In this document: one piece after another, positions 32,494 through 36,868 of the stretch
Numbering within the stretch: position 1 is the stretch's first letter
Layout of the letters: every line of letters begins with the position of its first letter
From: PVC group bacterium
Lineage (GTDB): Bacteria; Auribacterota; Erginobacteria; Erginobacterales; PUNC01
Assembly (NCBI GenBank): GCA_003551625.1
Contig: PUNC01000191.1
Span: 1-38,170, forward strand
Direction: 5' to 3'
DNA length: 38,170 nt
Made by a program: the position numbers and the translations under genes
The notes under the pieces: model-generated
The model's input: only the letters and a program-made list of their open reading frames with translations
Databases searched by the model: none
What the model was told of the DNA's origin: nothing

Positions 32494-33780
32494 ATGCGCC
32501 GTCAACTTAACTTATTGCTGCTGTCTGCCGCCTTATTCACAACGCCAGTTTTTGGATATACAAGTACATTCTCCCGCGTTGCAGACTCAGGTCATTATGT
32601 CTCGATCGCTTCGTGCCGCGATAATTTATGCCGGCCGCATTCGATATATAGCCTTAATGGCATTAGGTTATACCGCTTCCTGTTAAGGCCGGCATTGCCG
32701 TGGCATTCCTGCCGGATGTATCCTTCCTGTTCGCAGTACTCGTATGAAACCTTCAGCAGGGATACCTTTATTAAGTCCTATTTAAGGACTGTGGATAGAC
32801 TGATGCGTTGCGGTCGGGATTCAGGGAATTATAAAAAGCTATATGTAAATGGAAGATATCTTCATATAGACATAGGCGGTGGCGGCGGCAACAACGCAAC
32901 CGCGTCGAACAATAGGAACGCAATAAGCATATGTGCCGAACACAGAAATACCGGAATATACAATGTAGTACGGGGTAATAATCCTAGTGGAAACAAGACC
33001 GCCGATGAGCGCTTATTCGCATTCGCGAATTACCTGTATATGAATAGAAAGTATGATAAAGCGAATCTGGAGTACCACCGGCTCATCAGTTACTACCCCA
33101 GATCACAGTATGTTATAGACGCATATTGGGGCCTGTATTATACCTATTATCAAGTCGGTAAGTTAAACGAAGCGGTTAACGCGTTAATAAGTATTGCCGA
33201 TAGGGAGTCCCGCCCGGAAGTATTAACCGATATATATATGCTCATCGCATCTCGATATTTTGAATTGGATAAAATAAAGTTATCACGTCAATACCTGTCG
33301 CTCGCCATTGACCGGTCGCCGGACGAGGAAGGTAGAGAAAAAGCGAAAATGTTGACGGCCATTACCTACGCCGGCGAACAGAACTGGAAAAAGTCTCGTT
33401 TCATATTATCATCGATACTTGAAGATTCGGCCTATCGAGAGCGTGTCCAAGAGCTTGAATTGTTAATCGGCAAAGGAGAGGATCTGAAGCTTCGCAGTCC
33501 GTATCTTGCCGGGATGATGAGTATTGTTCCCGGACTGGGATATTATTACACCGGTTATAGAAGCGCGGCGGTTTCAACATTTATCGTAAACGGCCTGCTT
33601 CTCTGGGGGACGTATGAAGCATTTAATCGTAATAACCGGGAACTTGGAACCGTTTTGGGGGTGTGCAGTGCCGGTTGGTATGCGGGGAATATTTATGGCG
33701 CTGTGGTGACGACGGAAAGAGCGAACCAGAGCGCCCTTCAGGGATACCGCGTTAAGCTGCAGTTAAAGTTGATATTCTGA
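32494..33780 (+). CDS. Secreted YidD-domain / TPR-like / C-terminal membrane-segment fusion protein
   Basis: Signal peptide MRRQLNLLLLSAALFTTPVFG; YidD signature IRLYRFLLRPALPWHSCRMYPSCSQYSYETF...DRLMRCGR; helical repeat region (YLYMNRKYDKANLEYHRLISYYPRSQYVIDAYWGLYYTYYQVGKLNEAVNAL); C-terminal YLAGMMSIVPGLGYYYTGYRSAAVSTFIVNGLLLWGTY. Confidence 0.8.
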   Translation: MRRQLNLLLLSAALFTTPVFGYTSTFSRVADSGHYVSIASCRDNLCRPHSIYSLNGIRLYRFLLRPALPWHSCRMYPSCSQYSYETFSRDTFIKSYLRTVDRLMRCGRDSGNYKKLYVNGRYLHIDIGGGGGNNATASNNRNAISICAEHRNTGIYNVVRGNNPSGNKTADERLFAFANYLYMNRKYDKANLEYHRLISYYPRSQYVIDAYWGLYYTYYQVGKLNEAVNALISIADRESRPEVLTDIYMLIASRYFELDKIKLSRQYLSLAIDRSPDEEGREKAKMLTAITYAGEQNWKKSRFILSSILEDSAYRERVQELELLIGKGEDLKLRSPYLAGMMSIVPGLGYYYTGYRSAAVSTFIVNGLLLWGTYEAFNRNNRELGTVLGVCSAGWYAGNIYGAVVTTERANQSALQGYRVKLQLKLIF

Positions 33781-34108: not shown

Positions 34109-34162
34109 GTTTGATCAAGCGCCCGCGGTTGGCGAAGAGGGCGGAAAAAAAGAGAGGCAGCT

Positions 34163-36868
34163 ATGAATGAAAGATATTTCGCGGTTGCGATCGCGGTCTT
34201 CGGCCTGACGCTGGCGGCTTTTGCCGCCCCGGCGCTCGGCCGGGAATACCAATGGGCCTGGATGAAGGGCTCCGACGAGATAGATCAGCCGGGAGAATAC
34301 GGCGAGCTCGGCGTGGAGGCGGAGGCCAACACTCCCGGGGCGCGGTCGGGATCCGTCTCCTGGACCGCCGATGCCGGCCGCCTCTGGCTCTTCGGGGGCC
34401 AGGGCCTCGATAAAGACGGCAACTCGGGCGGGCTCAACGACCTCTGGCGCTACGATCCGGCCACGGGGAACTGGACCTGGATAAAGGGCGCCGACGTGAG
34501 TCGGCAGCCGGGAGTCTACGGCGAGCTCGGCGTGGAGGCGGAGGCCAACACTCCCGGGGCGCGGTCGGGATCCGTCTCCTGGACCGACGATGCCGGCCGC
34601 CTCTGGCTCTTCGGGGGGAGGAATTACATCATTTGGGAATTCCTCAACGACCTCTGGCGTTATGATCCGGCCACGGGGAACTGGGCCTGGATGAAGGGCT
34701 CCGACGAGATAGATCAGCCGGGAGAATACGGCGAGCTCGGCGTGGAGGCGGAGGCCAACACGCCCGGGGCGCGCGACTGGCCCGTCTCCTGGACCGACGA
34801 TGCCGGCCGCCTCTGGCTCTTCGGGGGCTATGGCCGTGATAAAGACGGCGACTGGCACTACCTCAACGACCTCTGGCGCTACGATCCGGATACGGGGAAC
34901 TGGACCTGGATGAAGGGCTCCGACGAGATAGCCCAGGCGGGAGTCTACGGCGAGCTCGGCGTGGAGGCGGAGGCCAACACTCCCGGGGCGCGGAGTGCTC
35001 CCGTCTCCTGGACCGACGATGCCGGTCGCCTCTGGCTCTTCGGGGGCTGGGGCTTTGATAAAGACGGCGAAATTGGCAGTCTCAACGACCTCTGGCGCTA
35101 CGATCCGGCCACGGGGAACTGGGCCTGGATGAAGGGCTCCGACGAAAAAAACCAGCAGGGAGAATACGGCGAGCTCGGCGTGGAGGCGGAGGCCAACACG
35201 CCCGGGGGGAGGGAGAATTCCGCCTCCTGGACCGACGATGCCGGTAACCTCTGGCTCTTCGGGGGCGGCGGCATGGATGGAGAAGACAACTGGAGCAAGC
35301 TCAACGACCTCTGGCGCTACGATCCGGCCACGGGGAACTGGGCCTGGATGAAGGGCACCGACGAGAGAAACCAGCCGGGAGTCTACGGCGAGCTCGGCGT
35401 GGAGGCGGAGGCCAACACGCCCGGGGCGCGGTTTGATATCTTCTCCTGGAACGATGATGCCGGCAACCTCTGGCTCTTCGGGGGCTCGGGCCTTGATAAA
35501 GACGGCAGCAATGGCTGGCTCAACGACCTCTGGCGTTTTAGCCTGCCGCCACCCGCAATCGCGGAGTCCTGGTACCTGCCGGCGGGCGGAACCGAGCTGG
35601 CGGGGACGGCGGTAGATACCTATATACTGATCTTCAACCCCGGCCCGGAAGCGGCGCCGGTGGAGCTGGTCTTCGTGGGCGGGAACGGCGAGATCGCCCG
35701 CCACGAGGCGGAGGTGGCCCCCTCGTCGCGGGCCACCTTCCGGATGAACGACCACGTGGCGGAGGCGGGAACGGTCTCGACGATCGTGATCTCGCTTGAC
35801 GGCCTGCCGCTGGCGGTGGAGCGTTCGAGTTACTGGGCCGGCGGGGAGTCCGGAACGCAGGCGGCCGGGGAGTGGGCCGGAGGCCACAACGCCCCGGCGC
35901 TGGACCTTGTGGAGGAGACGTGGTATCTGGCCGAGGGAGCGACGCACCTGTTCGACCTGTTCATCCACGTTCTCAACCCCGACCCGCTCGCGGCCGCCGA
36001 GGTGGAGGTAACCTTCTTCGACCAGCAGGGCAACGACTGGTCGGTCCTGACGGAGGTGCCGGCGCTGAGCAACCGGACGGTTGAGGCGCGGGTGGAGGCG
36101 GGCGAGCGGGGGCAGCTGTCGGCGAGGGTGGAGAGCCTCAACGGGGTTCCGGTGGCGGTGGACCGGACGACCTACTGGCCCCGGGGCGGTCCCTGGACCG
36201 ACGGCCACGCCTCGGTCGGAACCCCGGCGGCGGGGCTCACCTGGAGGCTGGCCGAAGGAGCCACTCACATCTTCGACTGCTACCTGGCGATCCACAACCC
36301 CTCGGTGACGGAGACGGCTGAGATCCTGATCGGATTTACGGGGGCGGCGCCGGGGATAATCTTCCAGCCGGCGGAGGTGGGGCCGCTCTCCCGCTACACC
36401 CTCAAGGTCAACGACGTGGTCGGCCCGGCCGGCGCGGTGGCCGCCACGGTGGTCTCGGATATCCCGGTGGTGGCCGAGCGGGCGATGTATTGGCCGCAGG
36501 GTTCGCCGGACGGCTGGACGGGAGGCCACGGCTCGGCGGGAACGCCGCAGGCGTTTTCGACCTGGCGCCTGGCCGAGGGAGCGGCGCACATCTTCGACTG
36601 CTATCTGCTGATATTCAACCCCTCCGATACGGACGCGGCGACCGTTGACTTCAACTTCCTGGACAAACACGGCGACACCATCCCCCACCAGGAAACGGTC
36701 GCGCCGCTGGACAGGACGACGGTAAAGGTCAACGACCTGGTCGGTTCGCTCGACGCGTTCTCCACGGAGGCGACCTCCGACATTCCGGTGGTGGTCGAAA
36801 GGGCGATCTACTGGCCCAAGGGCGGCCCCTGGATCGGGGGGCATAGCTCGCTTGGAGTGGGGGAGTGA
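34163..36868 (+). CDS. Secreted repeat protein: six Kelch-like blades plus four C-terminal 'WYLAEG...NP' modules
   Basis: Signal peptide MNERYFAVAIAVFGLTLAAFAAPALG; six copies of GELGVEAEANTPGxR...W.DDAGRLWLFGG...LNDLWR (last copy truncated/variant); then four WYLxxGxTxxFDxxxxIxNP modules. Confidence 0.85.
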   Translation: MNERYFAVAIAVFGLTLAAFAAPALGREYQWAWMKGSDEIDQPGEYGELGVEAEANTPGARSGSVSWTADAGRLWLFGGQGLDKDGNSGGLNDLWRYDPATGNWTWIKGADVSRQPGVYGELGVEAEANTPGARSGSVSWTDDAGRLWLFGGRNYIIWEFLNDLWRYDPATGNWAWMKGSDEIDQPGEYGELGVEAEANTPGARDWPVSWTDDAGRLWLFGGYGRDKDGDWHYLNDLWRYDPDTGNWTWMKGSDEIAQAGVYGELGVEAEANTPGARSAPVSWTDDAGRLWLFGGWGFDKDGEIGSLNDLWRYDPATGNWAWMKGSDEKNQQGEYGELGVEAEANTPGGRENSASWTDDAGNLWLFGGGGMDGEDNWSKLNDLWRYDPATGNWAWMKGTDERNQPGVYGELGVEAEANTPGARFDIFSWNDDAGNLWLFGGSGLDKDGSNGWLNDLWRFSLPPPAIAESWYLPAGGTELAGTAVDTYILIFNPGPEAAPVELVFVGGNGEIARHEAEVAPSSRATFRMNDHVAEAGTVSTIVISLDGLPLAVERSSYWAGGESGTQAAGEWAGGHNAPALDLVEETWYLAEGATHLFDLFIHVLNPDPLAAAEVEVTFFDQQGNDWSVLTEVPALSNRTVEARVEAGERGQLSARVESLNGVPVAVDRTTYWPRGGPWTDGHASVGTPAAGLTWRLAEGATHIFDCYLAIHNPSVTETAEILIGFTGAAPGIIFQPAEVGPLSRYTLKVNDVVGPAGAVAATVVSDIPVVAERAMYWPQGSPDGWTGGHGSAGTPQAFSTWRLAEGAAHIFDCYLLIFNPSDTDAATVDFNFLDKHGDTIPHQETVAPLDRTTVKVNDLVGSLDAFSTEATSDIPVVVERAIYWPKGGPWIGGHSSLGVGE
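34301..35560 (+). repeat. In-gene tandem DNA repeats, about 219 bp (one 210 bp), six copies
   Basis: ggcgagctcggcgtggaggcggaggccaacac begins at about 34301, 34520, 34730, 34949, 35168 and 35387. Confidence 0.9.

Follow-up and report, generated by a model that had tools for sequence, protein, structure and literature searches.

The gene analysed here lies near the end of the window, by which we mean the whole stretch of 38,170 nucleotides that was analysed (contig PUNC01000191.1 from a PVC group bacterium). It is a real coding frame at positions 32494-33780 of the forward strand, and its 428-residue product can be divided as follows:

32494..33780 (+): predicted exported YidD-TPR-hairpin gene, 428 aa, stop codon included (open reading frame, profile matches, model)
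32494..32556 (+): putative signal peptide, residues 1-21, MRRQLNLLLLSAALFTTPVFG (sequence; hydrophobic N-terminus in homologues)
32635..32868 (+): YidD domain, residues 48-125, with the CRMYPSCSQY core and a DRLMRC motif (Pfam match at 56-107, model)
32878..32988 (+): Gly/Asn linker, disordered, residues 129-165 (model pLDDT <50)
33001..33519 (+): TPR-like helical repeats, residues 170-342 (AlphaFold2 model, Foldseek matches)
33529..33717 (+): conserved hydrophobic two-helix hairpin, residues 346-408 (PGLGYYYTGY ... GWYAGNIYGAV; alignment, model)
33757..33777 (+): C-terminal tail LQLKLIF, residues 422-428, similar to an outer-membrane beta-signal (F-ending family members)

The YidD domain, which a preliminary description had read from the sequence, is matched by two profiles above their curated cut-offs: Pfam PF01809 at residues 56-107 (47.6 bits versus a cut-off of 27, E=1.4e-12) and NCBIfam TIGR00278 (45.4 versus 40). 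The proposed TPR-like repeats are borne out by structure prediction, the sequence profiles being all sub-threshold (TPR_2, 0.0086; NCBIfam YbgF, 7.4e-7, and BamD, 3.7e-6). An AlphaFold2 model (mean pLDDT 77.5), for which 13 family members were used, begins with a signal helix, followed by the YidD domain at residues ~48-125, a disordered stretch at 129-165, repeat helices at 170-342 (pLDDT about 91-96) and a helical hairpin at 348-424. In a Foldseek search of the PDB this model resembles TPR proteins generally, including BamD, PilF and YfgM. By sequence and by fold, the closest named envelope proteins to the repeats are BamD, YbgF (CpoB) and YfgM; the window protein differs from these in falling below the NCBIfam cut-offs and in its additional YidD and hairpin domains.

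The model and the fold search suggest an exported TPR protein, with a plausible signal sequence judged by hydrophobicity only. The claim of an export signal gains from the homologues, since 69 of 75 exported-type YidD reading frames begin with a hydrophobic segment and several of the other six are start-codon artefacts. Some family members carry lipobox-like signals. In the window protein the signal ends at PVFG-YTS with no cysteine directly after it, in contrast to the lipid-modified cysteine of pilotins, and a lipobox-like match (IASC) sits ~25 residues beyond the signal end.

The C-terminal membrane segment of the preliminary description is indeed hydrophobic and conserved, but it is better described as a two-helix hairpin, often followed by an aromatic, beta-strand-like tail. 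Averaged over 92 members, the hairpin flanks carry charges of +1.55 and +1.42 and the loop -0.16. The last residue of these 92 proteins is F in 45, Y in nine and W in two, and the tail, which resembles an outer-membrane beta-signal, may function as one. The conserved hairpin, with such a tail behind it in many members, makes association with the outer membrane as likely as association with the inner membrane.

The host genome and the origin of the gene

The window genome contains four Omp85 matches and two secretins, which mark the organism as a diderm with a periplasm. It also contains a canonical yidD (G000:C93) beside rnpA, whereas the window gene lies outside the rnpA-yidD-yidC locus, its neighbours being a PiT transporter gene and a kelch gene. 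The protein shares with canonical YidD (PF01809/TIGR00278; Escherichia coli YidD) the profile family and the C...P[ST]CSxY core; unlike the small, stand-alone and signal-less canonical protein, it is a 428-aa fusion to TPR-like repeats and a hairpin, and it begins with a hydrophobic, putative export signal. An ordinary cytoplasmic YidD is ruled out by this signal, the fusion and the second, canonical copy. Elsewhere in the same phylum, an open reading frame read as an RnpA-YidD fusion occurs at L005:1069-1749 (+), and similar open frames of 220-226 aa lie at the YidD matches of L012, L014, L016, L018, L020 and L022. In the window itself, a 909-aa open reading frame at 34115-36844 (-) looks like a shadow frame antisense to the kelch-repeat gene (34163-36868).

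The window gene is compositionally foreign. Its GC content is 0.461 and its GC3 0.502, against 0.574-0.674 and 0.649-0.945 in 15 other coding sequences of the window that were compared; ATA accounts for 13 of 25 isoleucine codons and TTA for 14 of 48 leucine codons, and AGA/AGG are also enriched. The comparison agrees with the earlier impression of an AT-richer, ATA- and TTA-heavy gene of foreign appearance. An assembly chimera is unlikely to explain the low GC content, as GC-rich genes flank the gene on the same contig. No close donor for horizontal transfer emerged from the tree or from scanning species genomes with the C-terminal part: the nearest relatives in the scan are only ~37-38% identical, and in the tree the window protein clusters with a clade of fused proteins (L043-L047, L049 and L050; support 0.862).

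Distribution of the YidD and TPR-hairpin unit

The full architecture was found in one of 44 genomes of the window's phylum, namely the window genome; another phylum has the parts as separate genes, adjacent or overlapping. Species genomes were scanned with the C-terminal part alone, which keeps YidD from driving the matches, and this yielded 23 loci in TA06, Zixibacteria, Verrucomicrobia, Brevinematales, Deltaproteobacteria, Bacteroidota, Chlamydiae and others. Of these loci, 21 have YidD, 12 as a fusion and nine as an immediate neighbour, and at the remaining two the gene for the C-terminal part is at a contig end. C-terminal-part matches also occur in 63 of 93 genomes of a chlamydial phylum sample and in 38 of 148 of a Desulfobacterota sample (the name used here for the phylum to which the Desulfobacteraceae locus L054 belongs). 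Among the regions fetched from the phylum that contains the Bacteroidaceae locus L053, many have operons of an exported YidD and one or two TPR-hairpin genes. The plasmids searched gave no match. The search for YidD-plus-TPR architectures thus recovers the unit, fused or as neighbouring genes, in many phyla, and the architecture is not a one-off. No description of an exported YidD or a YidD-TPR fusion was found in the open-licence papers searched, in keeping with the view that this architecture had not been characterised.

The exported YidDs are set apart from canonical YidD in the tree (support 0.954): 13 of 15 canonical sequences and none of the 75 exported ones fall on one side of the split, the other two canonical sequences having no resolved placement. 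A diagnostic D before the conserved R is found in 66 of the 75 exported forms, and in the window protein the canonical PGGxDPVP ending is altered. Chlamydial members have other residues in place of the core cysteines, which are therefore not essential throughout the family.

Secretins, cl2 and other neighbours

The neighbours of the unit differ between lineages. In Chlamydiota the gene order is secretin, TPR-hairpin gene (often lipoprotein-like) and exported YidD: a same-strand secretin is near the TPR gene in all 20 regions, within 300 nt in 15, and YidD is adjacent in 19. This linkage may represent a single inherited arrangement. One chlamydial secretin (L064:483-5339, +) is 1619 aa long with 13 Secretin_N matches. 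In another region, a second secretin gene (L140:5496-8306, +) separates the TPR-hairpin gene from that of the exported YidD. In Desulfobacterota, YidD is adjacent to the TPR gene in 14 of 20 regions. The TPR gene is found within gsp operons at L054 and L155-L157, and near gspF at L163. Other neighbours include LolA-like genes at or near the upstream side of exported YidD (L097:1510-2247, +; L098:3763-4464, -; L029:2815-3540, -) and PEGA lipoprotein genes (L031 and L033, with related genes in L105 and L107), while many Bacteroidota and Desulfobacterota units have metabolic neighbours instead.

Besides the secretin, a second kind of partner that recurs is cl2, an exported protein of ~175 aa whose gene is directly adjacent at most Zixibacteria, Bacteroidota and Verrucomicrobia loci of the C-terminal-part scan. 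Four members were checked and matched no Pfam family, the TrbI cut-off not being reached; in a genome search with TrbI the best match (E=0.04) was at the cl2 gene of L063. The top 22 PDB matches to a cl2 model are VirB10-family and related type IV secretion core-complex proteins, with a TM of only ~0.45, and a sequence search of the PDB with the cl2 profile returned nothing relevant. Aligned by hhalign to seven VirB10 C-terminal domains, the cl2 profile is colinear (E=2.4e-4; controls 0.9 and 0.31), and its hydrophobic insert starts opposite the part of VirB10 in which the membrane-crossing helices begin. The same method gave no match to a single VirB10 (TrwE of R388). Because of the low TM and the missing Pfam TrbI match, 'VirB10-like' is the furthest that the predicted fold of cl2, a modest match, can be taken. 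cl2 also differs from VirB10 in being a stand-alone protein, and type IV secretion neighbours were not seen. A cl2-like domain followed by a Gly-zipper-like tail occurs outside the YidD module at L176:1345-2034 (+).

Secretins and VirB10 are components of multimeric outer-membrane channels. The window gene adjoins no secretin, cl2 or LolA gene. Both secretins of its genome are on other contigs and none occurs among the window genes scanned, so the gene does not have the same-locus arrangement of a pilotin and its secretin; cl2 was not found in the genome (assembly 92.6% complete). With neither a secretin nor cl2 beside the gene and no cl2 detected in the genome, a secretin encoded elsewhere in the genome is a possible client of the window copy.

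A possible role in channel assembly

Like the TPR pilotins PilF and TadD, the window protein is a predicted exported TPR protein; its structural matches include PilF, and some of its relatives are lipoprotein-like and lie beside a secretin. Pilotins are not known to contain a YidD domain or the hairpin of the window protein. A pilotin role of TPR lipoproteins for secretins is established (PMC10499894), and for the secretin PulD, BAM-independent assembly is documented (PMC4604470). We favour a factor that assists assembly or insertion from the periplasmic side, given the recurring linkage to channel components, the resemblance of the repeats to BamD and pilotins, and the fact that TPR lipoproteins serve secretins as pilotins. 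We tentatively suggest that the window protein may be such an envelope-side factor, resembling a TPR pilotin and serving ring-forming outer-membrane channels. Sec export and removal of the signal would place the YidD domain and the TPR solenoid in the periplasm, with the flexible linker between them. Anchorage to a membrane, possibly to the outer membrane on its inner face, would come from the hairpin. A client or partner would bind in the TPR groove, and the YidD domain would help a hydrophobic segment to insert into the membrane. In lineages that allow a guess, the partner would be a ring-forming channel component, either a secretin or the small protein of VirB10-like fold, and the factor would act like PilF or TadD. 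The distinct envelope-protein assembly function previously suggested for a periplasmic YidD thus fits the neighbourhood evidence, and is otherwise offered here as a suggestion. The LolA-like genes upstream at three loci and the lipobox-like signals of some members point the same way, whereas the lack of a secretin, cl2 or LolA gene beside the window gene, the metabolic neighbours of many Bacteroidota and Desulfobacterota units and the modest fold match of cl2 speak against it. Computation establishes the domain architecture, the conservation of the unit, the separate clade and the neighbouring genes; from these the location, the anchoring membrane, the client and the insertion activity are inferred.

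The hairpin could also be an inner-membrane anchor, with YidD and the TPR repeats on the periplasmic face, where they would aid Sec/YidC insertion or early folding of exported proteins from the trans side in a manner similar to YfgM-PpiD. Consistent with this are the likeness that Foldseek found to YfgM from the PpiD-YfgM complex (TMt 0.70, rmsd 3.4) and the tie of canonical YidD to insertion that depends on Sec/YidC (Yu et al. 2011, cited by PMC8082313 and PMC3573977). However, positive hairpin flanks around a neutral loop are the reverse of what the positive-inside rule predicts for periplasmic flanks, and linkage to yidC, secY or ppiD did not stand out among the partly annotated neighbours at the loci read; we consider this placement credible but doubtful. 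There is a limited chance, too, that the unit is an envelope module for lipoprotein or lipid transport or for structural bracing, with secretins, cl2, LolA and PEGA proteins as mere fellow envelope genes. The variation of neighbours with lineage, from LolA-like and PEGA lipoprotein genes to metabolic ones, would be expected of such a module, but neither a secretin in every one of the 20 chlamydial regions nor the repeated adjacency of cl2 across several phyla would be.

For the window copy in particular, the strongly foreign composition, the single occurrence in 44 genomes of the phylum, the failure to find cl2 in the genome and the distance of the closest relatives (~37-38% identity) could all mean a recent orphan acquisition that has lost its original partner and is drifting or of little function. 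This seems unlikely, given that the reading frame is intact and the invariant residues of the family are kept in the alignment. The old family name 'haemolytic domain', and the report, cited in PMC3573977, that the family member YtjA of Bacillus subtilis lyses cells, would point to a secreted lytic or pore-forming protein. Such a role is very improbable in view of the conserved fusion to the TPR-hairpin, the broad distribution and the envelope-channel neighbours, and no toxin-like context was seen at the loci examined.

The proposed role in channel assembly might extend to the family as a whole, although more doubtfully: exported YidD plus TPR-hairpin could be a widespread device for assembling BAM-independent, ring-forming channels, namely secretins or, elsewhere, a miniature VirB10-like protein. 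TIGR00278 is an equivalog model for YidD, and exported proteins above its threshold would be named as the cytoplasmic-side YidC helper. The exported family also provides a second setting in which to test the biochemical role of YidD, which is poorly understood in the cytoplasm. If the exported family does assemble outer-membrane channels, it would be a candidate assembly factor for the secretins of Chlamydiota and others, and would extend the function of YidD to the opposite side of the membrane.
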